Origin: Neolewinella aurantiaca
GTDB taxonomy: Bacteria > Bacteroidota > Bacteroidia > Chitinophagales > Saprospiraceae
NCBI RefSeq assembly: GCF_008014675.1
Contig: NZ_VOXD01000004.1
Span: 62,001 to 126,000, forward strand
Length of the DNA: 64,000 nt
Direction: 5' to 3'
This document shows, piece by piece, positions 1,239-62,967 of the stretch. The translations under genes and the position numbers were made by a program. The notes under the pieces are model-generated. The model did not search any database and had not been told where the DNA came from. It saw only the letters and a list, made by a program, of their open reading frames with translations. How positions within the stretch are numbered: position 1 is the stretch's first letter; each line of letters begins with the position of its first letter.

Positions 1239-1256
1239 GGCGGGGCCGCAGGTGCA
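1239..1256 (+). repeat. dispersed GC-rich motif, copy 1
   Basis: GGCGGGGCCGCAGGTGCA, an 18-bp match to a motif found 17 times in this window (consensus GGGCGCGGMCGCRGGTGCA). This copy lies 20 bases after the receptor stop codon. It has no obvious partner of opposite orientation nearby. Confidence 0.6.
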
Positions 1257-1338
1257 AGGGTTGCTTTTCGAGAAAGGAGCAACGTGAATGCCCCCCAGCG
1301 GCTCCTCTGAATCCTGTTTTCATCATCACAACTTTTGT

Positions 1339-1363
1339 GGAGGCCGGCAATCCGTCGGCCTCC
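1339..1363 (+). terminator. hairpin, possible terminator of the upstream receptor gene
   Basis: GGAGGCCG and CGGCCTCC form a perfect 8-bp stem with a 9-base loop. The following GCTTTGTT is only a weak U tract. It lies between the receptor stop (1220) and the next gene (1519). Confidence 0.45.
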
Positions 1364-1518
1364 GCTTTGTTGCTCCTGATCATTTGGTCCGGGGCCAGCT
1401 TTCGGAGCCTCTTTCATTGAGGGCTTCATGCAGCGATGCAGTTCAGCTTTTCGCAGAATCCGAAACACGCTGGCGCGGCCAGCGGAAGCCATTGCTCCGC
1501 CGCTTTAAAAACATAGCT

Positions 1519-6046: not shown

Positions 6047-6056
6047 GTTTTGCGGA

Positions 6057-44037: not shown

Positions 44038-44094
44038 GTTGCAAGGTAAAACAATACGAGCACGGGTTTTTAGCCTACAGTCTAGAGTGAATAG

Positions 44095-46475: not shown

Positions 46476-46567
46476 AGTACGTTTTAGGGCAGGAATGAAA
46501 TTTATTCAGGCATTAACACTCAACAACAAAGCGGTCTAAGCAGAACAGACCTTAAACAAATTACAAT

Positions 46568-47272
46568 ATGGCTTTTTTCAATAGGCTGTCTAGTTTGTCT
46601 AGTCAAATAGCTAACAGACCCTTAAACAGCAAGGCTATTGCTGATAAGGTTTTTTGTATAGGGCTGCATAAAACAGGTACGACAACGCTAGCGAAGTACT
46701 TCAAGCAACATGGCTTTCAAGTAACTCATTCAACCAGTTGGGATCGTGACGGAGCGATGCTGAAAAAATACGATTTTTTCTCAGACGGAGGAAGTCATTT
46801 CGACGGAGATAATGAGCTTGATTATGAACGGCTATTTTACGACTTCAGGAACGCAAAATTTATCCTGCAAACACGGGATACTGAAAAATGGGTAGTGTCG
46901 AAACTAAAACATGCTGGCTGGAGGCCCGATACGGAGGTTCAAGTAGACGACCCTTTAAAAATAAGGCATGAAGATTGGACTTATAAGTCTTACCTGACGG
47001 TTAAACGATTTATTGAACACAAAAAAAACTACGAGGAAAAGGTACTTTCCTTTTTCGCGGAACATGGACCTGAAAGGCTTTTGGTAGTTGATATAACCAA
47101 AAAAGAAGAACAAGCTAACGAGATTGAAAATATTAAAAAATTTGTCGGACTCAAATCCTTTTCAAATATTAACCTCCCGCACGCCAATAAACGGAAGTCT
47201 AGTGTTCATCTTTCGGATGAAACATATGTGTATATTCGAGATGTTATTTCGAGAATGAATAGCGAGCGCTGA
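46568..47272 (+). CDS. sulfotransferase family protein 2
   Basis: 234 residues. KVFCIGLHKTGTTTLAKYF carries the 5'-phosphosulfate loop (GLHKTGTTT, residues 32-40) and FILQTRDTEKWVVSKL the likely 3'-phosphate site. The segment order and short length fit the sulfotransferase-3/P-loop group found in marine bacterial polysaccharide loci. It is only distantly similar to the preceding sulfotransferase, so it may sulfate a different position. AT-rich, in the low-GC cassette. Confidence 0.82.
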   Translation: MAFFNRLSSLSSQIANRPLNSKAIADKVFCIGLHKTGTTTLAKYFKQHGFQVTHSTSWDRDGAMLKKYDFFSDGGSHFDGDNELDYERLFYDFRNAKFILQTRDTEKWVVSKLKHAGWRPDTEVQVDDPLKIRHEDWTYKSYLTVKRFIEHKKNYEEKVLSFFAEHGPERLLVVDITKKEEQANEIENIKKFVGLKSFSNINLPHANKRKSSVHLSDETYVYIRDVISRMNSER

Positions 47273-47486
47273 TTTAAAAGAGGGTGATTGAGATGAGGCG
47301 CTTTCATTTTCTTCAGGTGCTAATTTTTTAATGCATTACCAGAGCATATCTAGCATCACCTTTAGCGGGTGTTTTCTGGTCAATTACCATGCCTTAACCT
47401 AGAGCGGTTGATTGTTCTGTGAAAAGAAAACAGATCATGTTAGGTGATTTTTGATAATAAACTGATCTTCAACAGAAGAATAAAAA

Positions 47487-48386
47487 ATGACTTATAATAA
47501 CACCATAAAAAAGGTTTTATGCATCATAGTTACCTACAATGCTTCTGATTGGTTAAATACTTGCATTAGTTCAGTTGTTAACTCCGATTATCCGGTCGAT
47601 CTTGCTGTTGTCGACAATGCCTCTACGGATGGAACAGCCGACCTCATTAAGAACCAATATCTGGATAGTATCAGTTATTTCTACCCCCTAAACGAAAACT
47701 TAGGATTTGGTAAAGCACATAATTTTGTCTTTCATGAATGTGATCTGACTGAATATGACTATGTTTTTCTACTTAACCAAGACGCTGAGATTTCGAGGTC
47801 TGGCATTTCAGAACTAGTACAAGTAGCCGAAGGCGATGGAACCTTAGGGATTTTAAGCCCGATTCATTATTACTCGGAAGGAGTTATGGACCGTTCTTTC
47901 GCGGGCTATTATGACCGGACCTTGGGAGAAAGAACAAAAATCAACGGTATTAATGTCCGAATGGTAGATTTTGTAAACGCAGCGATTTGGCTTGTTCGCG
48001 CTGACCTCATAATTAAACTAGATGGTTTTAACCCATTGTTTCAACATTATGGGGAGGACACTAACTTTGTGCACAAACTTCATGCTGCTGGCTACAGGGT
48101 CGGAATTGTTGAGTCTACTGCCGGTTTTCATTATCGTAACCAAGAGGCTACGGGACTGGACCGGCGCTCATTCGCTGATATGTTCTATCTAAAGCGTTTA
48201 ATTAGATTACTTAACCCCTCACTTTATTTTTTAAAAGAAATCATTGTGCTGCTAGGAGCAGCGGCGAATCACATTTTTTTGTACTTAATTAACAATGAAT
48301 TAGGTGAGGCTAAAAACATTTTAAATGGCCTGGTAAAACTATTGAAGCAGCTAGCGGTGATTTATCATTACCGTAAATTAACATGA
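47487..48386 (+). CDS. glycosyltransferase family 2 (rhamnosyltransferase-like)
   Basis: 299 residues. IIVTYNASDWLNTCISSVV, AVVDNASTDGTADLI and YDYVFLLNQDAEI (DxD-like) are GT2 motifs, followed by FNPLFQHYGEDTNFVHKLHAAGYRVG as in inverting rhamnosyl-type enzymes. A C-terminal hydrophobic region (YFLKEIIVLLGAAANHIFLYL) suggests membrane association. dTDP-sugar genes upstream would fit a 6-deoxyhexose donor, but this is inference. The IS1-family element inserted 270 bases behind it. Confidence 0.9.
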   Translation: MTYNNTIKKVLCIIVTYNASDWLNTCISSVVNSDYPVDLAVVDNASTDGTADLIKNQYLDSISYFYPLNENLGFGKAHNFVFHECDLTEYDYVFLLNQDAEISRSGISELVQVAEGDGTLGILSPIHYYSEGVMDRSFAGYYDRTLGERTKINGINVRMVDFVNAAIWLVRADLIIKLDGFNPLFQHYGEDTNFVHKLHAAGYRVGIVESTAGFHYRNQEATGLDRRSFADMFYLKRLIRLLNPSLYFLKEIIVLLGAAANHIFLYLINNELGEAKNILNGLVKLLKQLAVIYHYRKLT

Positions 48387-48701
48387 TTTTAACCCTCATG
48401 ACTTGATACGTTTGTACTCAGGTTAATTATAAAGTTTTGAATGTTTTTAACTGCTGTAGGAAGTTGAAACTAGAATTAAATAAAACTTCATTAAAGCACT
48501 GACTTACGTTTACTGCCAAAACGCATGTGTCGGAATTTACAACTAATATTATTAGTGTCTAAAACTAAGGTGTTGAATGTTTTCCGATTTAAATAGGCCT
48601 GATGTGCGAAAGATTCAGAGTATGCGAGAAAGAGATTACAAATCCGATTTTTATTTGGAGGTGTCTCAAATGTAAGGATAGCCGTATCCTAAAAATGGCA
48701 G

Positions 48702-48792
48702 GGGCGCAAACCAGATTGTCGCTCAACCCCCTCCCAGCCTCCCCACACCGCTGCGCTGGGGAGGAGCAATCGCGACAATCTGGTTTGCGCCC
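48702..48792. repeat. hairpin repeat nested in the IS element
   Basis: Two perfectly complementary 21-base arms (48702-48722 and 48772-48792; arm core CGCAAACCAGATTGTCGC) surround a C-rich/G-rich 49-base middle. The 18-base arm core reappears alone at 59314-59331. It lies between the left end and the transposase start, where a promoter would be expected. Confidence 0.85.
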
Positions 48793-48842
48793 AATGGCAG
48801 TGGGGCAGAGTTGCTATCTTGATAGCGACAAAACTCCAAAAT

Positions 48843-49579
48843 ATGCTCATCTGCCCCAGCTGCATGAGTGGGAAGGTAGTCAAGAATGGCAAAACCTACT
48901 ACGGAAAGCAGAATCATAAATGCAAAGATTGTAACCGACAATTCGTGACCAACAACAAACATACTATCACCGACCAATGACGAGAGGACGTCTCTGCTCT
49001 ACTGGCTAGCCCACTAGAGCGGAGACGTCTGAGAGGAATCTGTCGGTCTATGGGTGTGAGTTTAAGTTGGTTGCTGCCTTACGCTGTAGATGTCTGGGCG
49101 GAGACACCAGAGGACTTAGGAGCGAATAACGAATGGCTGAACTCTTTATCGGACGAACAACTTCAAAGCATTAAATTACAGATAGATGAGATGTGGTCCT
49201 TTGTTGATTTCAAGAAGAACAAGAAGTGGATTTGGGTAGTCTATTGCCCTGCGACAAAGCAGGCCTTGGCAATGCATATTGGTCGCCGATCAAAAAATGA
49301 CCTTGAAGCCATTCTACAGAACTTACCTGATCGATTACGCCGCAACTGTAAGTTTGCGACCGACCACTTCGAGAGCTACTATCAGCTGATTCCTAAAGAT
49401 CCGCACCAGCCAGGTAAAGCTTATACTACTACATAGAAGGTTACTTTGCTGGAGTTCGAGCCAGAGTAAGTAGGCTCGTCCGAAAGGCTCCTAGTTTCTG
49501 AAAGGACTTGGATAATCATGTGGCTGCGATCCGATATTTTCTGTGGCAACGAAATCTAGATTCCTATCCTTACATGTGA
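48843..49579 (+). pseudogene. degenerate IS1-family transposase
   Basis: From ATG 48843 the frame gives MLICPSCMSGKVVKNGKTYY and CKDCNRQFVTNN, the Zn-ribbon of IS1 InsA. Then a TGA at 48978 interrupts; RRRLRGICRSMGVSLSWLLP (helix-turn-helix) and DEMWSFVDFKKNKKWIWVVY plus CKFATDHFESYYQLIP (DDE Asp residues) follow. Near 49420 a one-base shift moves the rest (IEGYFAGVRARVSRLVRKAP, with the catalytic Glu) to another frame, and a second TGA follows at 49499. Three lesions make it non-functional; trans-mobilisation remains possible because the ends are intact. Confidence 0.85.
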
Positions 49580-49652
49580 TACACCCCCTTTTATTTTGTT
49601 AGAGGGCTAATAGTTCTTTACTTCAAAAAATTATTTGTCTAATAAAGTGTAT

Positions 49653-50843
49653 ATGAATCAACAACGTAAAAAGGTGCTATTTATCCACCATGGAAGTGCT
49701 TACGGAGGCGCACCAATGAGTTTGCTGTATACCGCACTCGGAATTAAGGAACACGGATATGAGCCTTTTGTAGCGATGGTGCAACCTTCTGATGATCTAC
49801 GAAAGCTGTACAATGATAATGGTATTGAGACTTTTGAACTTTCAGGATTTCCACGTTATTTTTTTTGGAGTAGCGATAACTATCGGCTATACTATCCGAT
49901 TGCAATAAAAAAAATCCTGGGTGCTGCATCTAAATATACTTCAGGCAGGGAAAAACTTTTTCTACTTCTGGATTCATTGAAGCCAGATATAGTACATCTT
50001 AATTCTGTAACGCTTGTTGCTGCAGTCAGCATGATGCGAGGCAGGACTGAAGAACTCGTATGGCATATAAGAGAATATGGGCCGAAGTACAAGGATTTTC
50101 GTTGGAAGTACATCCAGAAACAAATGATGGCCACAGAGAAGGTCATATACCTTTCGGAAGGAGAGCGAAAATCTTGGATCGAACGATCCGACCACGGTAT
50201 TGTAGTCAATAATTTTGTAAATGTTAATGACTTTTCAGCACCTGATCATCGTGGAAAAGAGAAGAGTATACTTGGAGTAGAAAACTGTTTTACACTGCTT
50301 TATGTAGGAGGGTTGAAAAAGAACAAAGGGCCAGAGTTGCTGCTTGAAACTCTGAATAATTTAAAGAAACGTGGGCATAAGGTAAAGTGCCTTATGCCTG
50401 GTGCCGTGACACCCGAAGAAGCAAGAGGAGAAACAATTGATGCTTACGCTTCATTCCTTATTGAAAGAATCAATGAGCTAAAATTGAATGATGTCTGTGT
50501 AAGATCGCCATTCTCATCAGATATTAGAGCGTTTTTCGTTGCTGCAGATGTTTTGTTGTTTCCTGCAATTTTCCCGCATTTTGCCAGACCAGTTATTGAA
50601 GCGAGTGCAATGAAAATTCCAGTAGTAGTAAGCAATTTAGAACCATTAGATGAGTTGGTCATTGATAACGAAACAGGTTTTTTAGCTGAATTGAGTGCCG
50701 AATCCTTTAGTGATAAGCTAGAGCGATTAATTAAAGATCCATCTTTAAGAACTGATATGGGCCTAAGAGGTCGTAAGTTTGCGCTTAGCCATTTTGATGC
50801 GGAGCAGCAGATAAGGAAAATCGCTAACTATTATGAAGGGTAA
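49653..50843 (+). CDS. glycosyltransferase family 4
   Basis: 396 residues from ATG 49653 (MNQQRKKVLFIHHGSAYGGA); an in-frame TTG six codons earlier is less likely. FIHHGSAYGGAPMSLLYTA is the acceptor-side loop, LYVGGLKKNKGPELLLETL the donor-side loop and EASAMKIPVVVSNLEPLDELV the conserved E-x7-E region of GT-B enzymes. Donor sugar unknown. First gene after the IS element and likely the start of a tightly packed operon running to 58156. Low GC. Confidence 0.88.
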   Translation: MNQQRKKVLFIHHGSAYGGAPMSLLYTALGIKEHGYEPFVAMVQPSDDLRKLYNDNGIETFELSGFPRYFFWSSDNYRLYYPIAIKKILGAASKYTSGREKLFLLLDSLKPDIVHLNSVTLVAAVSMMRGRTEELVWHIREYGPKYKDFRWKYIQKQMMATEKVIYLSEGERKSWIERSDHGIVVNNFVNVNDFSAPDHRGKEKSILGVENCFTLLYVGGLKKNKGPELLLETLNNLKKRGHKVKCLMPGAVTPEEARGETIDAYASFLIERINELKLNDVCVRSPFSSDIRAFFVAADVLLFPAIFPHFARPVIEASAMKIPVVVSNLEPLDELVIDNETGFLAELSAESFSDKLERLIKDPSLRTDMGLRGRKFALSHFDAEQQIRKIANYYEG

Positions 50844-50864
50844 GGACAAGTTGAAACAGTCGTT

Positions 50865-51446
50865 ATGATTAGTATGCTCAAGAAAATTTATAATTATGTC
50901 ATCTGGAAATTGAACTTGTATCATTTAAATAAGAACAGGGTATCTTTCCACAAAGACATCAAGATCTTAGGAAAGTTAACTGTCTTGAATCGGGGCGGGT
51001 GTTTTTTACTAGGTCGAAACGTGATTATCAACTCTCGTTATAGTGCAAACCCTGTTGGAAACGGACGGCAAACGGGTTTTTTCTTAAAGCCAAAGGCGAG
51101 TCTGACCATTGGAGATAATGTGGGAATCTCTAACGCTACTATCTATTGCTGGAAGTCAATAACTATTGAGTCGGACGTACTGATCGGAGGAGGAGTACAA
51201 ATATATGATTCGGACTTTCACTCACTAGGTTATGAAGACCGTGTCTTAAATGGGGACAAAAAAATTGCGGTAAGTCCGGTTAAAATAGAACAAGGAGCAT
51301 TTATTGGCATGAATAGTATCGTACTGAAAGGGGTTACGGTGGGGGCAAGAAGCATTATTGGTGCAGGGTCGGTTGTTACCAAGAGTGTGCCAGCAGGGGA
51401 AATATGGGGAGGGAACCCGGCGAAATTTATAAAGAAAGTATTCTGA
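50865..51446 (+). CDS. hexapeptide-repeat acyltransferase 1
   Basis: 193 residues. Left-handed beta-helix hexapeptide repeats throughout (LTIGDNVGISNATIYC, ITIESDVLIGGGVQIYDSDFHS) ending with VTVGARSIIGAGSVVTKSVPAGEIWGGNPAKFIKK, typical of WcaF/Maa-like O-acetyltransferases. It would acetylate a sugar of the repeat unit using acetyl-CoA as a trimer. 21 bases after the preceding glycosyltransferase. Confidence 0.9.
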   Translation: MISMLKKIYNYVIWKLNLYHLNKNRVSFHKDIKILGKLTVLNRGGCFLLGRNVIINSRYSANPVGNGRQTGFFLKPKASLTIGDNVGISNATIYCWKSITIESDVLIGGGVQIYDSDFHSLGYEDRVLNGDKKIAVSPVKIEQGAFIGMNSIVLKGVTVGARSIIGAGSVVTKSVPAGEIWGGNPAKFIKKVF

Positions 51447-51465
51447 TCTTAAATAGGATGAATTG

Positions 51466-52515
51466 ATGAAGGAGGATAATGAACTGTCAGTTAAAGAACT
51501 CTTTGTTGAGTTAAGTGCATATTTCAAATATGCTCGCTCGAAGTGGTGGTTAGTGGTGTTGGTTTGTTTGGTAATTATAGGTGGTAGTGTTGTTACTCGT
51601 TACTTAAGCGCACCTCTTTATACGGCTAAGTTGACGTACCTGGTAGAGACTGGAGGTGGGGGTGGCGGTAACGTTATCCTGTCCCAGTTAGGCTTGGGTG
51701 GTGGGCAAGCACCCAATGTAGAGAGGATTCAGCAAATTGCTTTATCTGATCAGGTGGGACTTAAAGTACTGTATGAAGGAGTAGAACTTAACGGTAAGAG
51801 AAAGTTGTTAGGTAACTACTTAATAGATGAGTTGGAGTTGCGGGAGAAATGGCGTGAAGAAGAATATGGCTTTGCGGAACTAGAACTGTTGGATTCTATT
51901 CCATTTCCAATTTCGAGAGATTACGCTAGTCTACATAAGGCACTACTTAACTTACTGTATGTCGGAGGGGGGCCTGACGGTCCGTTGATCAGGGTCGAAA
52001 CGGATGCACTTACAGTTATTGCTGAGGTAACGGTGGTGACTACCGATGAGCTGTTGTCCATTCATCTGGCCAATACGGAGTTTGACAAACTACGAGAGTT
52101 CTACACTATAAAATCTCAGGTAAGGCAATTGGACAATATAGCAGTATCCCGTACCCTCAGCGATTCGCTACAGCGGGAATTGACGAACGTACAGAAGCAA
52201 TTGCTACAGGCGCAAGATCGTCGGTCAGATATTGTGTTTAACCGAAACCGTTACGAAGTGGTACGTCTTGAGCAAGAACAACAAAAGCTAATCCTAGCAT
52301 ATACCGAAGCGTACAAAAATTTGCAAATAGCTGAGTTTACTTTCCGCAGCCAGCGCCCTAATATTGAAGTGATTGACCGACCCTTTGCCCCGATTTACGG
52401 TTACAGGTACCCAATAGTCCGCTTGGTTATGTTGAGCGGAATCATCAGTGTCATTGTCGCTCTGGCCCTGCTTTTCTTTGCTTACTTGTGGAAAAAAATA
52501 TTAACAGATATTTGA
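51466..52515 (+). CDS. Wzz/chain-length determinant-like protein
   Basis: 349 residues from ATG 51466, after an in-frame TTG. Membrane helix near residues 28-46 (WWLVVLVCLVIIGGSVVTRYL), a periplasmic part with a long coiled coil (SDSLQRELTNVQKQLLQAQD, VRLEQEQQKLILAYTEAYKNL), then IDRPFAPIYGYRYPIVRLVM and a second helix. This is the Wzz topology, with no cytoplasmic tyrosine-kinase domain. It should control chain length and connect Wzy to the SLBB export protein 7.6 kb upstream. Its stop TGA overlaps the next start (TGATG). Confidence 0.9.
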   Translation: MKEDNELSVKELFVELSAYFKYARSKWWLVVLVCLVIIGGSVVTRYLSAPLYTAKLTYLVETGGGGGGNVILSQLGLGGGQAPNVERIQQIALSDQVGLKVLYEGVELNGKRKLLGNYLIDELELREKWREEEYGFAELELLDSIPFPISRDYASLHKALLNLLYVGGGPDGPLIRVETDALTVIAEVTVVTTDELLSIHLANTEFDKLREFYTIKSQVRQLDNIAVSRTLSDSLQRELTNVQKQLLQAQDRRSDIVFNRNRYEVVRLEQEQQKLILAYTEAYKNLQIAEFTFRSQRPNIEVIDRPFAPIYGYRYPIVRLVMLSGIISVIVALALLFFAYLWKKILTDI

Positions 52516-54320
52516 TGATTGAGTGCAGAAATCATATCACTTATTTGTTGGTAATTGCCGTACTGCTCTTTGGTGTGCTGAACTGTCAAACTGTGGGAAC
52601 AACGCTACAAATTACGGCCTCGATGGAAGGCAAGGATCTTTCTCCAATGATTCGTACAACTTTGGAGCGTAATCCTAGTCAGCCGCTCAACCTAACTTTG
52701 GCGAGGGGGAAATTCTTTTTGTCGGAGAACATCCAACTCCCCGGGGGGAGCCGTTTGGTGGGGGCAGGAAGAGGTGCTACTGTTTTAGAAAGTGCCGCAG
52801 GAGTTGTTCTACTTGTAGCCGATGTTTCTGAGGTAGTGATTTCAGACTTTACGCTTAAGTCTGATGGTGGACACAGTTCGGTGGAGGTTCGTTCTGGCAC
52901 CTATCGGGAAAAAAAATCCGCCCGCCCGATACGTAACGTTCGGATCGAGAATATCAGGATAGATAACAATGCAAATACGACTAAAGGTCGGCATGGTATT
53001 TCGATTAGAGCGTGGGCCAACGAGGATGTGAGTGACATTGTCATTCGCAACTGTTCTGTAACCGGTGCATGGGGTAGGGACATCAATTTTGGCTTAGACA
53101 ATTGTTACCTTGCCTCTTATGACAGCGACGGTACGGGGAGCGTTCACGACGTTCTTGTGGAAGGCTGTGATTTCGATCTTGCTGGCCGTCAAAATCTCTC
53201 GGTAGCAGGTAAAGGGGCTGGAAAGCCATACAATATCACTATTCGAAATTGCAGTTTTAAGAATAGCACCCTTGCAGGGATTGACCTGGAAGAAGCACGT
53301 GCCGTCAAAATTGAAGGATGCTCTTTTGAGGACAATGGTTTATGTACCACCTACTTTGATTTAGGGTCTCGTAACAATGCTATGCGTTCTGCTTTGGTGG
53401 CACACAATAGTGAAGCGGCGGTTAGTGATTGTACCTTCCGTAACGCATTCATTGGTTATGCTGCTGTCCACAAGGAAAGTGGCGGAATGCACCTGACCGA
53501 CTGCCATTTTACTGATGCTCCTGTCGCCAATGGAAATTTTGCCGGGTTTGGGGAAACGGAATTCAATAACTGTTCTTTCACGGGAAGTAACCGTCCGGTG
53601 GTAAAGATGTACCGTGGCCGCTTTCAGTTTACGGATTGCCGGTTTTCGGGCAGCGCTGAGTCACTGATAGAACTTGCCGGAGGAGGAACCTCCAAGAGAG
53701 AACATGAAATAGCTGGTTTTACTAACTGTGAGTTTACTGGTTCCGGCTCCACTACTGCGATTCTGGCCAATTACGAGTTCCTTGTTTTTGAGGGCTGTAA
53801 ATTTCAAACTTTTTCTAATTTATTTAGTACTTCCGGAATCAACCGGTGGAATACCCTTAAACTTCTCAATGCCAACGTAAGCGATGTTGGCTCTATTGGA
53901 GAGTTTCCTTATCAATCTTTAGAGTATTTGAAAATTGAGAATAGTCACCTTGAGCTGTCTAAAGGAGGACTTACCTCGCCTACGGTGAACGGTGTTTTTG
54001 AACTGAATGGAAACGATATAAAGCTGGCCAACAAAACAGCTGCACTAGTTAAAAGTAAGCAGTTTCGCAAAGTTGTGTTGAAGGGAAACACCATTTCTCA
54101 AGAGGTAGCGACTATGCCTCTAATTGACCTTACTACCCAAGCCGATGGAGAAGTTCATATCATTGATAATGTATTGCCTGAAAAAAGCAGGGAAGTCTCT
54201 CTTATCAAAATAGCGGGACGCGGAAAGATTCCTTTAGGTAAAACAACCATTGGTGGTAATAAAAGCCTCTCCGGGAAGTCAGTAGATCCGGACCTATTTG
54301 GAACCTTGAAGAAAAACTAG
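52515..54320 (+). CDS. secreted parallel beta-helix protein
   Basis: 601 residues from ATG 52515, overlapping the Wzz stop by one base; a GTG at 52488 is an alternative. N-terminal hydrophobic signal (ITYLLVIAVLLFGVLNCQT; the Cys context is not a good lipobox). The body is many right-handed beta-helix (PbH1) rungs of the pattern VRIENIRIDNN, IVIRNCSVTG, VLVEGCDFDLAG, ITIRNCSFKNST, VKIEGCSFEDN, FNNCSFTGS, FTDCRFSGS. Such folds occur in polysaccharide lyases, epimerases and tail-spike glycosidases. Catalytic residues cannot be identified. Its position between wzz and wzy suggests it modifies or trims the polymer in the periplasm (inference). Confidence 0.85.
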   Translation: MIECRNHITYLLVIAVLLFGVLNCQTVGTTLQITASMEGKDLSPMIRTTLERNPSQPLNLTLARGKFFLSENIQLPGGSRLVGAGRGATVLESAAGVVLLVADVSEVVISDFTLKSDGGHSSVEVRSGTYREKKSARPIRNVRIENIRIDNNANTTKGRHGISIRAWANEDVSDIVIRNCSVTGAWGRDINFGLDNCYLASYDSDGTGSVHDVLVEGCDFDLAGRQNLSVAGKGAGKPYNITIRNCSFKNSTLAGIDLEEARAVKIEGCSFEDNGLCTTYFDLGSRNNAMRSALVAHNSEAAVSDCTFRNAFIGYAAVHKESGGMHLTDCHFTDAPVANGNFAGFGETEFNNCSFTGSNRPVVKMYRGRFQFTDCRFSGSAESLIELAGGGTSKREHEIAGFTNCEFTGSGSTTAILANYEFLVFEGCKFQTFSNLFSTSGINRWNTLKLLNANVSDVGSIGEFPYQSLEYLKIENSHLELSKGGLTSPTVNGVFELNGNDIKLANKTAALVKSKQFRKVVLKGNTISQEVATMPLIDLTTQADGEVHIIDNVLPEKSREVSLIKIAGRGKIPLGKTTIGGNKSLSGKSVDPDLFGTLKKN

Positions 54321-54323
54321 CCA

Positions 54324-55571
54324 GTGCTACGTAAGGGACTAGCGGTTTATATCCTATTGTTACCATTCACGTCTGCTTTCGCGCTGACGTCAACCATAAC
54401 GCTTAGCGTAGTATGGGTATGCGCACTGCTACTACTGTACGTATTCTATATTATGATAAACAAGAAGATGCAGAACCCGCTGACGGTTGAGCATCTTTTA
54501 GCGGGGACTTTTCTTCTTGGAATAGTCATTTCCTATGTTTACAATGGTTTCCTCCAGTCGAAGCCTACGAACCACCTGATTGCCTACTTCGTCACGTTTG
54601 GGCTCTTCTTTGGCTTTATCAACCAACTGTTAAACGAGCTCGGGCCAAGTGAAAAGAACGTAGACTTCGTACTTAAATGGCTGACGATCATGATGGTATT
54701 CGTCAGTTGCTTTGCGGTAGCGGAGTTTGGGGTCCGGATGGCCATTGGGGTCAATATCGGAGACTTTCTGCCACGGCCGTTCAGGGGGGAATACGACTCT
54801 TCTACACTTGACAAGTTTCTGGTGCGAGTACGAGGTTTTACGGAGGAATCCGGCCAGCATGCATTCATCAGTGAAGCTTTTATGCCGCTCTGTATCTACT
54901 ACCTCATTTACCGGACCAATTGGCCTGGATTAATAAAAGGAGGTCTGATCGGGCTGCTGATTGTTAGCTTTCTGTTGGCGTTTAGCGCAGGCGCGCTTGT
55001 CGCTTTGGGGCTGGCCTTAGGAGTAATGGGTGCATATTACTTCGTATTTCGACGCATTAGCGTGGGGACCATCTTCAAACTGGTGATAGGGGTTTTGGTA
55101 GCCTACCTGGCTATTCTGGCCCTTCTTGACATCGATCTTTTTGCTACGCTTTACGCCATCGTTGAAGCAAAACTAAACGGCGGTGGATCATTGAATGACC
55201 GTAGCAGTCGGATGGATGAGTTTTGGATTGCTTACTTACCTCAACCCATATATCATAAACTTTTGGGGTTCGGGCCTTCAGGGTTCCGTATTCTCGGACT
55301 AGAAAAATCTATTCTCTCTCTCTACCCGACTTTCATGAACGAAGGAGGCATTATCAGCCTTAGTACTTTTCTATTGTTTCTCACGTACACGTTCTGGACA
55401 ATAGTACGCATTGAAGGCGTAGCGAAACTATTTTTACTTGTGAGTTTTGTTGCTTGCGTTGTCCATTATATCGCTGTTGCTGATTACTTCCGGCCGTGGT
55501 TTTGGTTTTTTACAGCGCTGGTCTTTTTTATAAGTCGGGTTGAAAGCGAAGCGAAAATAGCCAAGGTGTAA
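54324..55571 (+). CDS. O-antigen/exopolysaccharide polymerase, Wzy-like
   Basis: 415 residues with a GTG start three bases after the preceding stop. About ten membrane helices with one long periplasmic loop (GDFLPRPFRGEYDSSTLDKFLVRVRGFTEESGQHA) and DRSSRMDEFWIAYLPQPIYHKLLGFGPSGF, typical of Wzy/O-antigen-ligase family proteins. It would polymerise lipid-linked repeat units in the periplasm. Identified by topology and context because Wzy sequences diverge strongly. Confidence 0.85.
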   Translation: MLRKGLAVYILLLPFTSAFALTSTITLSVVWVCALLLLYVFYIMINKKMQNPLTVEHLLAGTFLLGIVISYVYNGFLQSKPTNHLIAYFVTFGLFFGFINQLLNELGPSEKNVDFVLKWLTIMMVFVSCFAVAEFGVRMAIGVNIGDFLPRPFRGEYDSSTLDKFLVRVRGFTEESGQHAFISEAFMPLCIYYLIYRTNWPGLIKGGLIGLLIVSFLLAFSAGALVALGLALGVMGAYYFVFRRISVGTIFKLVIGVLVAYLAILALLDIDLFATLYAIVEAKLNGGGSLNDRSSRMDEFWIAYLPQPIYHKLLGFGPSGFRILGLEKSILSLYPTFMNEGGIISLSTFLLFLTYTFWTIVRIEGVAKLFLLVSFVACVVHYIAVADYFRPWFWFFTALVFFISRVESEAKIAKV

Positions 55572-55572
55572 C

Positions 55573-56217
55573 ATGAATCAACTGAAATCCCTACTACGCC
55601 TCTGCCAAAAAAACCACGTGAGTTTCCTCTACGTCGCGATAAGGGCTGCGTACTGGAAACTATTCAGAGGGTTACTGCTATTCGCTCCCGCAGCAGTGGC
55701 AATGCGGATAAAAGGGAGAATTGAAACTTCGGATCGCCTTGTCGTTGGTTTGGGTGAATCGAACTTTACTGACGGAAGAGAGCGAACGATACTAAATATA
55801 CGCGGCAAGCTGGCCCTTGCCGGAGCCTATTCTATTGGGAGCGGTTGCCGCTTCGATATCGGGAATGACGCAACCGTTAAAATTGGAAAAGGCGGCTATA
55901 TCAACGTCAACACAACAGTTGTCATCATGCATGGGCTCACGATTGGAGATCAATGCGTGATTTCCTGGAACTGCCAATTCCTGGATGAAGACTTTCATCA
56001 GGTGGAGTATGAAGGTAAAACTCAACGGCCTAAAGAAATTACCCTGGGCAGCCACGTTTGGGTCGGCTGCGGATCAAGTATATACAGCGGTACAAGTATC
56101 CCGGATGGTTGCATCGTTGCCTCCAACAGTGTAGTGCGTGGTGTATTTTCCGAACCTAATTGCATAATCGGAGGAAATCCTGCTAAAATTATTAAAAGAA
56201 ACGTTGATTGGAAATAA
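55573..56217 (+). CDS. hexapeptide-repeat acyltransferase 2
   Basis: 214 residues starting one base after the wzy stop. Beta-helix hexapeptides (IGSGCRFDIGNDATVKIGKGGYINVNTTVVI, HGLTIGDQCVISWNCQFLDEDFHQV) end with HVWVGCGSSIYSGTSIPDGCIVASNSVV and GGNPAKIIK. Related in design to the first acyltransferase gene but clearly different in sequence, so a second acetylation site is plausible. Confidence 0.9.
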   Translation: MNQLKSLLRLCQKNHVSFLYVAIRAAYWKLFRGLLLFAPAAVAMRIKGRIETSDRLVVGLGESNFTDGRERTILNIRGKLALAGAYSIGSGCRFDIGNDATVKIGKGGYINVNTTVVIMHGLTIGDQCVISWNCQFLDEDFHQVEYEGKTQRPKEITLGSHVWVGCGSSIYSGTSIPDGCIVASNSVVRGVFSEPNCIIGGNPAKIIKRNVDWK

Positions 56218-57005
56218 CTGATAATAAACCACTAATCTCCATTATCACCGTAGTTTACAATGGTGCGGCCTACCTGGAAGAAACGATCAGGAGTGTCCTT
56301 GCTCAGGATTATTCTAACTACGAGTATATCATCATTGATGGAGGGAGTACTGATGGTTCAGTCGAGATAATAAAGCGCTATGCTGATCATCTTGTTTACT
56401 GGGTCAGTGAACCTGACCGTGGCATGTACGACGCGATTAATAAAGGCATCGGGCGGGCGAAGGGGGAGATTTGGACCAGCCTCAATTCAGATGATCGTTT
56501 GGCCTCGGAAGGCGTATTTTCCGCAGTAATAGATGCTTACCGGAAGCACCCGGAGCACATTGCCTACTTTGGCAACATCATTAAGGAACGTGACGGTGAG
56601 CGGAGACATATCAGGTTGGAGGATGTTGGTTTTCAGCGATTGCTCTCTTCCCGCCATTGCACCTTTATGCCTCAGCCTGCTACTTATAACGTTAAGGCCA
56701 AAACAGATGCGGTGGGGTACTTCGATGACCAGTACCGCTACGCGGCGGATTATGACTATCACCTGCGGATACTCAAAGAAGGGACTGCTTTACACGTTCC
56801 GATCGAATTTACCATATTCCGCCAACATGAGGATGCGCTGACGAGTACCGGAAACGACAAGATGCGGGAAGAAAAAGAGAAAATTATTACGGCTCACGGC
56901 TACGGACAACAGCCACTTAAAGAGCGCCTTCTTTACTTTATCGGCTGGTCGAAGTACGCTATCCGTAACAAGTTGTTTACCCGCACCAGTACCGCTGAAT
57001 TATGA
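56208..57005 (+). CDS. glycosyltransferase family 2
   Basis: 265 residues, TTG start at 56208 inside the end of the previous gene (10-base overlap); no ATG is available in frame before the conserved first strand. LISIITVVYNGAAYLEETI, YIIIDGGSTDGSVEII and WTSLNSDDRLASEG (DxD-type SDD) are GT2-A motifs of the colanic/WcaE-like subgroup. Ends with a TGA overlapping the ATG of the next gene (ATGA). Confidence 0.9.
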   Translation: MEITDNKPLISIITVVYNGAAYLEETIRSVLAQDYSNYEYIIIDGGSTDGSVEIIKRYADHLVYWVSEPDRGMYDAINKGIGRAKGEIWTSLNSDDRLASEGVFSAVIDAYRKHPEHIAYFGNIIKERDGERRHIRLEDVGFQRLLSSRHCTFMPQPATYNVKAKTDAVGYFDDQYRYAADYDYHLRILKEGTALHVPIEFTIFRQHEDALTSTGNDKMREEKEKIITAHGYGQQPLKERLLYFIGWSKYAIRNKLFTRTSTAEL

Positions 57006-58156
57006 AGAAAATACTAATTGATGCAACCTGCATTCTGCCCAAGCAGAGCGGCGTGGGGAGATATGCCATCGAACTTTTGCGGGCTATGGTGGCTCTTGAC
57101 CAGAAGAGATGGGCGCTCCACATTTTGTTGCATCCCGATATCAGAAACATGACGGATTCTCCGGTAGGTTTCCTGTTTGCAGAGTCACGGATAAAACCGG
57201 AAGTGAGCTACCTTGAAGTGCCGGGTATAGGGTTTAAACGAGAGTGGGTTTTCTGGCGTATGCGCGGTCAGTTTCCTGCTCATGACTTGTTTCACTGCCT
57301 GTCTTCCAATGCTCCCTGGTGCATGGCGAAGCGTGGGCTCGTTACCATACATGACCTGAAATTCATTCTTTTTCCTGGTTTTTTCGGAAAAGTCGGGCGT
57401 TTGAAAAGCTTGTATCTGAGTAAGCAGTTTCGTGCTATTGCGCGCAGGTACCAAAGAATAATTACAGTAAGTGACTCTACCCGACACGATTTTCTGGAAG
57501 TTTATGGTAGCGAAGCCAAAGGACTGGAAAAGAGGGTTAAAGCAATTTTGTCCGGGTATTCCGTGCCAGGTGGAAGTACTTCACTTCCTGAATTAAAACA
57601 GCAATACGGTATTGACGGCCCTTACTTCTTCTACCTGGGAGAGTTGCGGCCGCACAAGAATGTACGGGGCATGATCGATGCCTTTATTGCTCATAAGCGA
57701 GCGAATCCTGATAATGATGCATTGTTTGTTATCGGGGGGCATGCTCACCCTTCTTTTGTCGCAGATTATGTGGAGGATGAGGCAGTTCGCTTTATCGGTT
57801 TTGTACGGGAACAGGATCTTGGCCCGCTTTATAAGCACTCGCTGGCCTGTTATTTTGCCAGCTTATATGAAGGTTTTGGTTTCCCGATTCTCGAAGCGAT
57901 GGCCTCAGGCACTTTGGTGATCACCTCGTCCATCAGTTCGATGCCGGAAGTGGCTGGTGACGCTGCAATACTGGTGGACCCTACGGATAAAAGTGACATG
58001 GAATCCGCACTTACCCGTGTAAAGGAGATGTCTGAAAAAGAAAGAGAAGCCTTTATTCAGAAGGCTTCATTGAATCTGGACCGTTTCTCCTGGAAATCCT
58101 GTGCCAGACAAACTTTCGAGCAGTACAACTTACTGATCGGGAACCTCACGAAGTAA
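57002..58156 (+). CDS. glycosyltransferase family 4 (mannosyltransferase-like)
   Basis: 384 residues, start overlapping the preceding stop by four bases. SGVGRYAIELLRAMV, VTIHDLKFILFPGFF, YFFYLGELRPHKNVRGMIDAF and ASLYEGFGFPILEAMASGT are strong GT4 motifs of the WbaZ/MtfB-like group, often mannosyltransferases. GDP-mannose-derived sugars are suggested by gmd and fcl downstream, so the donor could be GDP-Man or GDP-Fuc; this is inference. Confidence 0.9.
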   Translation: MKKILIDATCILPKQSGVGRYAIELLRAMVALDQKRWALHILLHPDIRNMTDSPVGFLFAESRIKPEVSYLEVPGIGFKREWVFWRMRGQFPAHDLFHCLSSNAPWCMAKRGLVTIHDLKFILFPGFFGKVGRLKSLYLSKQFRAIARRYQRIITVSDSTRHDFLEVYGSEAKGLEKRVKAILSGYSVPGGSTSLPELKQQYGIDGPYFFYLGELRPHKNVRGMIDAFIAHKRANPDNDALFVIGGHAHPSFVADYVEDEAVRFIGFVREQDLGPLYKHSLACYFASLYEGFGFPILEAMASGTLVITSSISSMPEVAGDAAILVDPTDKSDMESALTRVKEMSEKEREAFIQKASLNLDRFSWKSCARQTFEQYNLLIGNLTK

Positions 58157-58167
58157 ATTAAAAGTAG

Positions 58168-59283
58168 TTGAAGCCTCCACTTACCGTAGCCATCATCTCC
58201 AACACAGCCTGGAGTCTGGTCAATTTCCGTACCAGACTCATGGAGTCTTTGCGGGAGGCTGGCCACCGGGTCGTGGCCGTTGCTCCACCTGATGACTACG
58301 TTGACAGCGTAAACGCTTTGTGTGATGTGTTTGTGCCGCTGAAGGAACTTAGCGCCAAGGGGAAAAACCCCGCTCAGGATTACCGCCTGTACCGGGAATT
58401 TTGTGCAATCTTCCGGAAACACGGTATTGACTTTGCTTTCACCTTCACGGCAAAACCCAATATCTACGGCGCAATGGCCGGAAAGCGTTGTGGAGTTCCC
58501 GTGGTGCCAACGGTCAATGGATTAGGGAACGTATTTATCGAAAAAAGTCCGACCCAGGTGCTCATGCGGGCACTATACCGGCGAGCTTTCCGGAGTTGCC
58601 CCACGGTATTGTTTCAGAACATCGATGACGAAGAACTGTTTCTTGAAGCAGGAATTGTTGAGCTGGGGCAATGCGGTAACGTTCCGGGTTCAGGGGTGGA
58701 TTTGAAAAAATTCCCCGTTAAAGAAAGGGCTTCCGCCAGGCCTTACCGCCGCTTTCTGTTCACCGCCCGGCTGGTTAGGGAAAAAGGCGTTTTTTATTTT
58801 CTTTCCGTTGCGGAGAAAATCCGCCAGTCCGATCTTCCGGCGGAGTTCGTTGTTATTGGAATGCCAGCTAATAATCCTTCAAGCATCAGTCCTGATGCTT
58901 TATCCGAGTACGTGTTCAAAAAGAGTATAACTTATCTGGGGCAAACGGATGATATGAATGCTGCGCTGGAGAAAACAGATGTGTTGGTTCTTCCTTCTTA
59001 TTATCGGGAGGGTATTCCTCGTATCTTGCTGGAGGGGTTGGCCAAAGGCCTTCCAATCATTACTACTGATAGTGTCGGCTGCCGGGAAACGGTCACGAAC
59101 GAGGTAAACGGCCTACTGATCGCTCCACGTAGTGAACGTGCACTGGAGCAAGCAGTCCGCAGTATGCTGGAACGATCAGAGGAAGAACTTGAGGGTATGG
59201 GGAGAGCCAGCCGTCGGTTAGCCGAGGAGCGCTTTGATGTAAATCAGGTCGTTAGTACCTACTTAAGTATACTGGAGGCTTGA
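58168..59283 (+). CDS. glycosyltransferase family 4, paralogue of the gene at 62964
   Basis: 371 residues with a TTG start at 58168. AIISNTAWSLVNFRTRLMESL and GHRVVAVAPPDDYVD at the N-terminus, TFTAKPNIYGAMAGKRCGVP, FLFTARLVREKGVFYFL and YYREGIPRILLEGLAKGLPIITTDSVGCRE at the C-terminus identify a GT4 enzyme of the PglA/CapM-like type. The protein at 62964 shares the same segments (VANTAWNLLNFRKSL, YREGCPRVLLEG). Last gene of the packed operon; a 440-base gap follows. Confidence 0.9.
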   Translation: MKPPLTVAIISNTAWSLVNFRTRLMESLREAGHRVVAVAPPDDYVDSVNALCDVFVPLKELSAKGKNPAQDYRLYREFCAIFRKHGIDFAFTFTAKPNIYGAMAGKRCGVPVVPTVNGLGNVFIEKSPTQVLMRALYRRAFRSCPTVLFQNIDDEELFLEAGIVELGQCGNVPGSGVDLKKFPVKERASARPYRRFLFTARLVREKGVFYFLSVAEKIRQSDLPAEFVVIGMPANNPSSISPDALSEYVFKKSITYLGQTDDMNAALEKTDVLVLPSYYREGIPRILLEGLAKGLPIITTDSVGCRETVTNEVNGLLIAPRSERALEQAVRSMLERSEEELEGMGRASRRLAEERFDVNQVVSTYLSILEA

Positions 59284-59313
59284 TCAGGGGTTCCGGTTAC
59301 ACACTTTCTGTTA

Positions 59314-59331
59314 ACAATCTGGTTTGCGCCC
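59314..59331. repeat. solo copy of the hairpin arm
   Basis: ACAATCTGGTTTGCGCCC, identical over 18 bases to the right arm of the hairpin at 48772-48792 within the IS1-family element. Confidence 0.75.
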
Positions 59332-59610
59332 TAACGATCTTAGGCCTGTCTAGGACACTATACATTTAAGAGTAACGTCCTGATTATTTACCTCTTAACC
59401 ATATAGCATCAGTCGTATTTTACAGTCGGAAAGTCACCCTCAGGTTTATTCTCCGCCAAAAATCGAAGGGGGCATGTCTAATCACTTTATTCACTTGAGC
59501 TGCTGGGCTTCGTTTAAAAGTTGCGTCGGATAGTTACGGCCGGACCTTAAGTGGGCAATTCTGACTTAAGAGCCTAAAGTAATTGCTCTCTTTGCTCCAT
59601 TATCCTTTTC

Positions 59611-59723: not shown

Positions 59724-60839
59724 ATGGCTAAAAAAGCTCTCATTACCGGTGTTACCGGACAAGACGGAGCGTACCTCTCCGAACTACTTCTCAAGAAAGG
59801 TTACGAAGTTCACGGCATTAAGCGCCGTGCTTCTCTGTTCAATACCAATCGTATTGATCATTTGTACCAAGACCCTCACGTAGACAACCGCAACTTCATC
59901 CTCCACTACGGAGACCTGACCGATTCGACGAACCTTGTACGCATCGTCCAGGAAGTCCAGCCCGACGAGATCTACAACCTCGGCGCGATGAGCCACGTTA
60001 AGGTGAGCTTCGATATGCCGGAGTACGCCGCCGATGCCGATGGCATCGGAACGACACGTCTGCTGGAGGCCATCCGCCTGCTGGGCCTGACCAAGAAAAC
60101 TCGCTTCTACCAGGCATCGACGTCCGAACTCTACGGGTTGGTGCAGGAAGTACCTCAGTCAGAGACAACACCGTTTTACCCCCGCTCCCCGTATGCGGTG
60201 GCGAAGATGTACGCCTACTGGATCACGGTCAACTACCGCGAAGCCTACGGCATGTACGCCTGTAACGGCATCCTGTTCAACCACGAATCGCCGCTGCGCG
60301 GCGAGACTTTCGTGACCCGCAAGATCACCCGCGCGGTGGCCAAGATCAGCCTCGGCCTGCAGCAAGACCTGTTCCTTGGTAACCTCGACGCGAAGCGCGA
60401 CTGGGGCCACGCCAAAGACTACGTCGAAGGAATGTGGCGGATGCTCCAGCAGGATGAGCCGGAAGACTTCGTGCTCGCTACGGGTATCACCACTACGGTC
60501 CGCGACTTTGTAATCATGAGTTTCCGCGAAGTAGGGGTTGAATTGTCCTGGTCTGGCGAAGGTGTAGACGAGAAGGGTACCATCGCTTCGGTGAGTAACC
60601 CCGACTTCCCCCTCGCAGTAGGTACACAGGTTGTTGCGGTCGATCCGCGTTACTTCCGTCCTACGGAAGTGGAGCTTCTGCTGGGCGACCCGGCAAAAGC
60701 GAAGGCGAAACTGGGCTGGGAGGCAGAGTACTCTCTGGCCGACATGTGCTCCGAAATGGTTCGGGCAGATATCGAAGTTTTCCGCAGAGACCAGATTCTT
60801 AAGGAAGCCGGATTCGAAATCCGCAACCAGTACGAGTAA
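59724..60839 (+). CDS. gmd: GDP-mannose 4,6-dehydratase
   Basis: 371 residues. [67 protein letters not shown] and [20 protein letters not shown] are diagnostic of Gmd, including the catalytic Thr/Ser-Glu and Tyr-Lys. It converts GDP-mannose to GDP-4-keto-6-deoxymannose. Three bases before fcl, so the pair makes GDP-L-fucose. High GC and strong codon bias, unlike the preceding cassette. Confidence 0.97.
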
Positions 60840-60842
60840 GCC

Positions 60843-61775
60843 ATGGAAAAGCAGAACAAAATCTACATCGCCGGCCATCGTGGTATGGTTGGCTCGGCCA
60901 TCAGAAGGAACCTGGAATCAGCAGGGTACACAAACATCGTTACGCGGACGAGCGGGGAGTTAGACCTTCGCGATCAGGCTGCGGTACAGGCGTTTTTTGC
61001 GGTCGAGAAGCCGGACTACGTTTTCCTCGCGGCAGCCAAGGTTGGGGGTATTCTGGCCAACAACACGTACCGCGGCGAGTTCCTCTACGATAACCTCATG
61101 ATCGAGGCCAACGTAATCGAGGCCGCACGGGTACACGAGGTCAAAAAGCTGATGTTCCTTGGATCCAGCTGCATCTACCCCAAACTGGCGGAGCAGCCCC
61201 TCACGGAGGATGCCCTGCTGACTGGTCCGCTGGAGCCGACGAACGAACCCTACGCGATCGCGAAGATCACCGGAATCAAACTGTGTGATGCCTACCGTCA
61301 CCAGTATGGTTGCGACTTCATCTCGGTAATGCCCACGAACCTTTACGGCCCGAACGACAATTACGACCTGAAGAGCAGCCACGTTCTTCCGGCCCTGATC
61401 CGCAAGTTCCACGAGGCGAAGAAGAACGGCACTCCGGAAGTTGTGATGTGGGGAACGGGGTCTCCGAAACGAGAGTTTCTGCACGCCGACGACCTCGCCG
61501 CAGCGTGCGTTTTTCTGATGCACAACTTCAGCGATTACGGTTTCGTGAACATCGGAACGGGCGAGGACCTCGCTATTCTGGAGCTGGCGCAAACGATCAA
61601 ATCGGTAGTTGGTTACGAAGGGGAAATCACCCACGACCTGACCAAGCCCGACGGCACGCCCCGCAAACTAATGAATGTTGGCAAGCTCCATGCGATGGGC
61701 TGGAAACACCAGATCGATCTGCAAGAGGGCATCGAGAAGGTTTACGCATCACTGACCAATGAAGAATGGTACTAG
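60843..61775 (+). CDS. fcl: GDP-L-fucose synthase
   Basis: 310 residues. [72 protein letters not shown] and [20 protein letters not shown] are the family signature with Ser-Tyr-Lys catalytic residues. It epimerises and reduces the Gmd product with NADPH. The end overlaps the next glycosyltransferase gene by 17 bases. Confidence 0.97.
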
Positions 61776-62967
61776 GGGGGTGCTCTTCATCACACAACGT
61801 TTTCCGCCACATACCGGAGCCGCAGCGCGCCGGCTCCGGTATCTGGCGCAAAATTTTTCGAAAACCGGTGATGTATTTGTCATCAGGGCAGGAGTGCCGG
61901 GGATCGAACTAGATGAAGTGAAAGAAACCCTGGTGATCGCAGCCAGTGACCTGCGGAAACTGTCGGGCAAAAACGGCAAAACCCTGAGCGGAAAAGCGAA
62001 GGAAAACTTCCCGGTAAAGCAACTTCTGAAAGCCCGCCAGGCCTTCCCTTTTCTTTACCTGACCGACGACGGCGGTGTACGGTACCGGCAACAAGCGTAT
62101 CACAAGGCATGCAAATTAATCGAAAAACACGGTATCACTACCGTGTTTTCGTCGTTTAGGCCCTGGTCGGATCACTTGGTTGCCCGCCAACTGAAGCGCA
62201 AATATCCTCATCTTGTCTGGATTGCCGATTTTCGCGATTTGCCCGTTGATCCCGTCCGTAAGGATGTCTGGTGGCCGGGCCTGCAAAAATGGTGGGGAAG
62301 GAAAGTTGTTGCGCGGGCCGATGAAATGTGGGCCGTATCTGAAGGGCAAGAAGAGCAGTTCATGGGGTGGCACCCCAACATAAAAGTGCAACGCAATGCG
62401 TTGCTGAAAATGCCGCCGATATGTTCCACTCCGCTGACCGATCGTTTTACGATCGTGTACACCGGAAGCCTTTACCCCGGCTTGCAGTCGGTGGCGCCTC
62501 TGGTCGGGGCACTGCGAAAAATGTTGGCAGCAGGGACGATGAGCCCCGAAAAACTATGTCTGGTATACCGGGGTAAAGACGCTCCGGTTTTTGCAGAATG
62601 GACCAAAGAGTTGCCCGCTGCCTGCCTTGACATTCAACCTTCCATTGCACCCGCGGCCGCGCAAAAAATGCAACAAAACGCCCAGTTATTGCTCCTGCTC
62701 AACTGGTCTGCTCCTGGGTATTTCGGCGTGCTGACGGCGAAGCTGTGGGACTACCTCGCGACCGCAAGACCGGTGCTCGCACTGGTAAACGGGCCGGGTG
62801 ATAAGGAACTTAAAGGCATAATAGAGGGCGCAAACGCAGGTGCCGTGTTTGCGGATGAGGAGCAAGGGAGGTTGGAGAAATGGCTCTCCGAGCAGTACGC
62901 AGCCTGGCTGAAAAACGGCGAACTGCCCTGGTTTCCTGACCGGCAAAAACTAACCAGCTACTTATGA
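61759..62967 (+). CDS. glycosyltransferase, GT4-like
   Basis: 402 residues starting inside the 3' end of fcl. [25 protein letters not shown] is the acceptor-side loop, [20 protein letters not shown] resembles the gene at 33206, and [15 protein letters not shown] plus [17 protein letters not shown] form the donor site. Two GC-rich motif copies are in frame near its 3' end (IAPAAAQ and GANAGA), one of each orientation 180 bases apart. The donor sugar may be GDP-fucose from the preceding genes (inference). Confidence 0.85.
62645..62663 (-). repeat. dispersed GC-rich motif inside a glycosyltransferase gene, copy 1
   Basis: TTGCACCCGCGGCCGCGCA followed by AAAAAATG, in frame as APAAAQK. Confidence 0.65.
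62826..62844 (+). repeat. dispersed GC-rich motif inside a glycosyltransferase gene, copy 2
   Basis: GGGCGCAAACGCAGGTGCC, in frame as GANAGA; forward orientation, unlike its neighbour 180 bases upstream. Confidence 0.6.

Follow-up and report, generated by a model that had tools for sequence, protein, structure and literature searches.

A hairpin-cored repeat of Neolewinella aurantiaca and its likeness to sequences for DNA self-recognition

Uptake sequences, the "passwords" by which some bacteria recognise DNA of their own kind, have been described in the Pasteurellaceae (uptake signal sequences, USS) and in the Neisseriaceae (DNA uptake sequences, DUS) (PMC1939737, PMC3630211, PMC7811141; statements cited in this text refer to excerpts of the papers named). 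For both types an origin by point mutation, an excess in non-coding DNA, no orientation bias and even spacing were reported (PMC1939737). DUS occur in dialects that differ between species, one of them by an inserted base, and in Simonsiella pairs of DUS overlap in a dyad (PMC3630211). The USS of Haemophilus combines a strong core with A/T tracts (PMC7811141). Here we describe a motif from Neolewinella aurantiaca, found in a window of 64,000 nucleotides, the whole stretch analysed (contig NZ_VOXD01000004.1, positions 62,001 to 126,000, assembly GCF_008014675.1; genome G000 in the following). In several aspects the motif resembles such passwords. By analogy we regard it, tentatively and with slightly less than an even chance of being right, as a genus-specific, hairpin-cored self-recognition sequence that most likely would serve DNA uptake.

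The element is approximately 30 bp long and can be written as (T-run) GGGCG-CGGM-CGC-AGGTGCA-RRGNAAGGTT. Read from 5' to 3' it starts with a T-tract, which is weak, continues with G GGCG, a loop that reads CGGM or, among other variants, CAAA or GGGA, and then CGC, AGGTGCA, RRG, NAA and GGTT, and ends in a loose tail of purines in which GGAGCAAGG is frequent. The T-tract is reminiscent of the A/T tracts in the USS of Haemophilus. It corresponds to the A-run beyond the GC part that was mentioned in an earlier note on the window; this run is a weak excess in the own genome and strong in the dialect of genome G011 described below.

The earlier note had named 17 positions of the motif and estimated that far fewer than one would be expected by chance. 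The motif was found at all 17 (each within 2 bases), and 15 of them lie within 3 mismatches of the first consensus, where 0.12 are expected and at most 2 occurred in any of 100 shuffles. The copies at 10619 and 23093 have 4 mismatches each. With a weight matrix trained on G000, 19 copies are called with confidence in the window; those at 1559-1588 and 39940-39969, both on the minus strand, are new. They are listed with their matrix scores, together with one weak match:

1238..1267, plus strand, intergenic, 33.8 bits
1559..1588, minus strand, AGGATGCA variant, overlooked at first, 26.7 bits
10050..10079, plus strand, intergenic, T-run on the 5' side, 31.9 bits
10608..10637, minus strand, intergenic, 29.7 bits
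15490..15519, plus strand, intergenic, 30.8 bits
15949..15978, minus strand, intergenic, 26.1 bits
20098..20127, plus strand, intergenic, 36.1 bits
20392..20421, minus strand, intergenic, inverted neighbour of the copy at 20098, 40.9 bits
23092..23121, plus strand, within a PLP-dependent enzyme gene, antisense, kept in relatives G008 and G003, 30.5 bits
24454..24483, minus strand, intergenic, 27.7 bits
25651..25680, plus strand, within a Mur ligase gene, encodes LAGTQVQGN, 29.1 bits
33165..33194, plus strand, immediately 5' of a glycosyltransferase gene, kept in G008, 35.2 bits
34671..34700, minus strand, intergenic, kept in G008 and there with a 5-nt loop, 37.4 bits
36956..36985, plus strand, in an ABC transporter gene, in the variable-length loop GGAAAGAGEG, 37.1 bits
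39940..39969, minus strand, in a UDP-glucose/GDP-mannose dehydrogenase gene, antisense, also in G005, G006 and G018; 11 relatives without it, 8 of the 11 of the same length, 22.2 bits
42588..42617, plus strand, in a polysaccharide-export (SLBB) gene, encodes GADAGAM, 31.7 bits
59602..59631, minus strand, intergenic, 30.4 bits
62635..62664, minus strand, within a gene, 35.3 bits
62826..62855, plus strand, same gene as the copy at 62635 but on the other strand, 26.4 bits
23400-23429, weak extra match to the right half only, absent from 3 aligned relatives and probably due to chance

In the whole assembly of G000 (6.0 Mb, 104 contigs) the short form GCGSRRRCGCRGGTGCA has 385 exact matches, 197 forward and 188 reverse, compared to 0 for the reversed pattern; the genome-wide count is thus far above chance and not close to it. 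Further counts refer to a sample of 458,765 bases of this genome, which comprises C1, a part of C2 and the window. This sample holds about 184 sites, namely 170 weight matrix matches of at least 14 bits and 14 matches of the right half only; of the 5 right-half matches that align, 4 lack a counterpart in relatives and are possibly due to chance. One pair in + + orientation 6 bp apart is probably a single place counted twice. Extrapolated from these 459 kb, the genome would contain approximately 2,400 copies, at a density of about one per 2.5 kb. Above 16 bits 163 sites were counted versus 0 in an order-5 Markov control, and between 10 and 16 bits 15 sites versus 4; the score distribution is two-peaked.

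Genes were called with a simple hexamer caller (in G011 only long open reading frames were used). Although 85% of the bases are coding, 95 of the 184 sites are intergenic and 89 genic, which amounts to an approximately 6-fold intergenic enrichment per base. The mean score is 27.6 bits for coding copies (76 sites) compared to 31.9 bits for intergenic copies (92 sites). The presence of copies inside genes, reported earlier as being in frame, is confirmed, but a fixed frame is not: 47 genic copies are sense and 42 antisense, and only one of the three sense frames, which needs AGG and a cysteine codon, is avoided (3 of the 47 sense copies). Among 93 classified intergenic copies 32 lie in divergent and 12 in convergent regions. 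Between tandem genes 22 copies run along transcription and 27 are opposed to it, and the earlier impression of oriented copies upstream of start codons does not persist in this larger sample. Pairs less than 200 bp apart are mostly inverted, + then − (14 of 20).

These counts also bear on the idea that the motif is a coding remnant, its complement reading as the signal-peptide end CTCVRAQ. Some copies do encode such an end, e.g. MRFFTLLLVLFYCTCVRAQ and MLRFFALLLLTFFCTCVRAQ. However, half of the copies are intergenic, and N-terminal frames occur at 30 of the 184 sites, whereas random places give a mean of 39.9 and the opposite strand 27; lacking an excess of N-terminal frames, a signal-peptide origin is refuted as a general explanation, and we give the idea hardly any chance. 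The view of the earlier note that the motif resembles a recognition site and not a coding remnant is supported by the intergenic enrichment, the lack of strand preference, the orthologous conservation and the spacing, which is even outside the window. Where copies lie in signal peptides, this seems to be a secondary use. Antisense copies at G000:C1 58648, 70554 and 75865 form the signal-peptide ends CTCVRAQ and CTCALAQ.

The spacing of the sites was compared to 2,000 random placements matched for the share of coding and intergenic positions. In C1 (132 sites) the coefficient of variation (CV) is 0.76 versus 1.04 by chance, and none of the 2,000 simulations was as even. The part of C2 gives a CV of 0.72 versus 0.99 (p 0.03).

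The core of the motif is a 3-bp hairpin, GCG-loop-CGC, with a loop of 4-6 nt, mostly 4; a longer-loop example is GGGCGC-CGGA-GCGCAGGTGCA, and the alternative stem GCT-CGGC-AGC recurs. For an analysis of covariation 349 sites were pooled from the own stretches and from relatives of the same dialect, selected without the use of the two tested columns; they include orthologous copies, each counted singly, and are therefore not independent events. The closing pair is G-C in 311 of these sites, T-A in 10, C-G in 3 and A-T in 1, so that 325 of the 349 pair, compared to a maximum of 306 in shuffles. Together with one neighbouring pair, with which they are tied, these columns have the highest mutual information of all column pairs. 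If the loop is taken as 5 or 6 nt, 20 of the other 24 sites pair as well and 4 do not, leading to 345 of 349 pairable sites with loops of 4-6 nt. The two outer stem pairs are nearly invariant and hence provide little information. In the pooled set no covariation above shuffles was found for columns 3/6, 4/5, −1/10 and −2/11 (4/5 reaches p 0.02 in the relatives alone; 3/6 tends away from pairing). At one orthologous coding place the arms are GCT/AGC in the own genome and G008, and GCG/CGC in G002, G003, G005 and G006. According to this exchange and the covariation of the closing pair, the ability of the core to pair is conserved.

This result is relevant for a further explanation, according to which the motif, with a twofold symmetry GCG-N4-CGC and copies at regular distance, is bound by a protein of the nucleoid or one that organises the chromosome. 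The dyad core, the regular spacing and the large number of copies would be expected of such a site. We nevertheless consider it quite unlikely, as the partner bases covary through four Watson-Crick types and the gap is 4, 5 or 6, neither of which is predicted by binding to a duplex dyad; the asymmetric tail and the copies on phages speak against it as well. A structured RNA was also considered and rejected, since no Rfam family reached its gathering score anywhere in the window and there is no preferred orientation relative to transcription.

The motif is restricted to the marine genus Neolewinella. Among 60 genomes searched, every one of the 20 further Neolewinella genomes contains its short form, with between 1 and 333 exact copies each; 38 of 39 genomes of other genera lack it and one has a single match. 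Among 395 genomes of the class, one other genus member included, more than one match was obtained only for the own genome and that member, and four others have one. A 29-base form searched in 84,980 species genomes gave 46 stretches, all from Lewinella, Neolewinella or one metagenome-assembled genome of the Bacteroidia. In five genomes of other genera (60-120 kb each) the best 14 overrepresented words show nothing comparable.

Species with few copies of the short form spell the motif differently. The dialect of G014, GGGCGCTGCCGCRGGTGC, has 50 sites in 120 kb, and its search form 753 exact matches in its own genome, at most 116 in other genus members and 0 outside. G011 uses TTTTTTGRCTRNCAAAGTAGCARNG, with 61 sites in 180 kb and 674 exact matches in the genome compared to 0 in the other 59 genomes searched; its arms are RCT/AGT, and it contains GTAG. 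A weaker dialect, GGGCGGCGGAGCGCAGGTA, has 30 sites in 120 kb of G001. In G007, which lacks a clear motif, only 7 sites occur in 120 kb. All dialects are built alike, with GG followed by a 3-bp stem, a loop, the stem again and a tail, and the T-tract is clearest in G011. For 43 sites of the G011 dialect we counted 28 coding and 15 intergenic positions and 14 sense and 14 antisense copies, with a CV of 0.70 versus 0.98 (p 0.006); placement, strand and spacing thus mark the repeat independently in a second dialect. Overrepresented k-mers of G022 were rejected as a dialect, since they stem from a local array only (L306 13900-18200, repeats partly 91 bp apart, inverted arms GCAAGTTTCCCTTAAG...GGGACAAGTGTAACTTGC). 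Tandem arrays with units of approximately 128-137 bp and internal inverted words are located at L285 13989-14490 (G014) and L282 1479-2027 (G001).

Orthologous DNA could be compared for 26 coding sites (77 site-relative pairs), 21 of which are well-scored. At 19 of these 21 at least one relative carries a site as well, with flanks that are approximately 67-91% identical. At 10 of the 21 at least one relative lacks the motif, and 4 of these 10 align without change of length: the Mur ligase site (one gapless motif-free relative), the dehydrogenase site (8 of 11, the other 3 differing by 1-3 nt), C1:172655 (one) and C1:161086. The last has the motif in the own genome, G008 and G003, while all five motif-free relatives (G002, G005, G006, G018, G019) have the same length and other letters. 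The remaining 6 sites show differences of −229, −18, −3, +6 and +24 nt, and of +9 to +38 nt at 36956, with no recurring element length. No gap of the size of a transposition recurs and some differences are gapless, which by alignment argues that substitution accounts for some of the sites; copies in general may have been gained in this way. Intergenic orthologous DNA is too divergent to separate insertion from substitution.

The mode of change is also informative with regard to an element like the repetitive extragenic palindromes (REPs), i.e. a hairpin moved by a Y1 (HUH) transposase, the copies being old and decayed. A hairpin with a conserved adjacent tail is the usual form of HUH substrates, and the motif has both. 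Its close pairs are mostly inverted, GTAG occurs inside the G011 dialect, and Y1 genes are present in 20 of the 21 genomes of the genus (40 genomes searched), four of them in G000. REPs and REPINs (REP doublets forming hairpins) with their REP-associated tyrosine transposases (RAYTs), tagged by GTAG or CGTC, are comparable in being small hairpins with hundreds to thousands of copies, inverted pairs and many genus-limited families. They differ in that REP stems comprise 5-13 bp (PMC3733652), and in being mostly intergenic and, for the GTAG type, tied to a transposase. Here, the stem has 3-4 bp, the main dialect lacks a GTAG/CGTC tag, and with close to half of its copies in genes the motif is not mainly extragenic. 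Around the four own Y1 genes 6 sites occur in approximately 12 kb, close to the 4-5 that the mean density predicts, and no gene among them has copies on both sides in the way known from REPs; 15 Y1 loci in other Neolewinella genomes were scanned and show no flanking pattern. The gapless sites and the more than randomly even spacing do not favor transposition either. Stem length, genic positions, the missing link to a transposase and the mode of change thus render the REP-type repeat with a RAYT, as suggested in the earlier note, unlikely.

Copies of the motif are also found on phages. A 21-base form matches 29 places in 23 stretches of viral contigs, several of which are near-identical to each other. 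These stretches (202,339 bases) hold 49 sites, 29 of them the selecting matches and 20 beyond; as the stretches were picked for carrying the motif, the number of sites gives no measure of enrichment in phages. One viral contig of 38.7 kb belongs to a tailed phage, given its genes for a tape-measure protein and a head maturation protease, and has 6 sites in the 22 kb examined. The hosts of these phages would be Neolewinella if judged by the motif. Viral searches with the G011 dialect gave two single matches, probably chance, and those with the G014 and G001 dialects none; a letter-scrambled pattern had no match either, a weak control owing to its length, which exceeds that of the real pattern by 4 letters. 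The copies on phages need an explanation under any model, be it that phage DNA is transferred by uptake, that the motif protects it inside the cell or that the phages reside for long as prophages. Among the viral loci, L326, L328, L334, L335 and others carry 2-5 copies of the host dialect per stretch.

Protection inside the cell would be provided by an intracellular self-marker, a site on single-stranded DNA that is read, similar to Chi, by a recombination, repair or defence nuclease which spares marked DNA; selection would then spread the motif in the chromosome and in the phages of these hosts. Even spacing, balanced strands, the conserved ability to pair and the tailed-phage contig with its 6 copies are in line with this possibility, which we rank second after uptake, as doubtful but worth serious consideration. 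Chi sites are likewise dispersed, species-specific recognition sequences, but they are much shorter (5-8 nt) and are not known to form hairpins. The approximately 30 bits of conservation far exceed what a nuclease signal needs, and the viral stretches were chosen for the motif, by which their putative hosts were assigned as well.

Returning to DNA uptake, we find a genome-wide excess in both orientations, even spacing (in C1, the C2 part and G011, not in the window alone) and dialects. Copy number, even spacing, presence on both strands, the non-coding excess, gapless change and dialects match the reports on DUS and USS, and for this reason we favor uptake. A protein of the cell would recognise the 5' T-tract, the mini-hairpin GCG-N4..6-CGC, where pairing would outweigh the letters, and the tail AGGTGCA-RRG next to it. 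At uptake and recombination, motif-bearing DNA would be favored; copies arising by mutation would be driven up wherever genes tolerate them, and the spellings of the lineages would have shifted together with the putative receptor. We infer a role of this recogniser in the uptake of DNA, where it would see the core in its paired form, single-stranded or extruded. The DUS of the Neisseriaceae are similar with regard to thousands of copies, both strands, clade dialects, the reported origin by substitution and the presence of genic copies; they differ by a length of 10-12 bp, a CTG core and the known receptor ComP, compared to approximately 30 bp, a covarying mini-hairpin with a 4-6 nt loop and a putative recogniser in another phylum. 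The USS of the Pasteurellaceae share a strong core with A/T tracts (PMC7811141), even spacing and more non-coding copies than expected, but are reported as not palindromic, and their core letters are unrelated. In the same phylum as Neolewinella, the competent Riemerella columbina prefers its own DNA, and the excerpted text names only A/T-rich candidate words (PMC7965970).

Several points weigh against uptake. DUS and USS have been described as non-palindromic (PMC1939737), so that a core which pairs and covaries is alien to them. Their overrepresentation is described as gradual over mismatch loads (same excerpts), whereas only 15 sites score 10-16 bits here compared to 163 above. The hairpin of the free 21-mer is weak (−2.5 to −3.8 kcal/mol, no more stable than shuffles), and of three sequences tested one adopts another fold; a protein would therefore have to hold the paired form, if this form matters. 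ComEC is encoded in all 21 genomes of the genus but proves nothing, being near universal (37 of 40 genomes overall), and in the literature we found no data on uptake or competence for the genus. At 36956 all 6 motif-free relatives are 9-38 nt shorter; the gapless differences are compatible with gain or loss, and insertion may have taken place at 36956, or elsewhere at a time before the genomes compared here diverged. The phage copies would be explained as easily by an intracellular role. Finally, the window alone is unevenly spaced (CV 1.23), since a polysaccharide gene cluster leaves the part from 42.6 to 59.6 kb free of sites. This motif-free gap of 17 kb (42600-59600) has a weak coding signal and contains a flippase, glycosyltransferases and a beta-helix protein, which fits recent acquisition or turnover.

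Taking the pairing further, we put forward with reserve, as a possibility only, that the motif is a self-recognition code read through base pairing, by which the chromosome, and some phages too, would be marked every 2-4 kb, the pairing being kept while the letters change by species. Such a code would represent a structural counterpart of uptake sequences that is read on the single strand, in a phylum for which we found no established ones. We know of no third group in which uptake sequences have been established, and our literature search found none reported for this order. If uptake is confirmed, a third independent origin with intra-genus dialects and a base-paired core would make it possible to test by comparison how the specificity of uptake begins, how it shifts and how it is read. 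If the motif is instead read inside the cell, it would be a new and unusually large self-marker, shared by some phages. In both cases the motif is a mark of the genus and hints at the sequence to include in DNA destined for these bacteria.

Two further repeats were observed in the own genome. An element of 164 bp similar to a miniature inverted-repeat transposable element lies at 32961-33124 of the window, with inverted ends AGAGCTTGTTC...GAACAAGCTCT; the 459 kb searched contain one more copy (C1, approximately 79870-80034, 93% identical), which matches itself on the other strand. A stretch of approximately 166-180 bp at G000:C1:78571-78750 (L034 18571-18750) belongs to a repeat family unrelated to the motif; it recurs at about 30 places in G003 among the matches listed, with 81-86% identity, and in shorter pieces in G019, G006 and G002.

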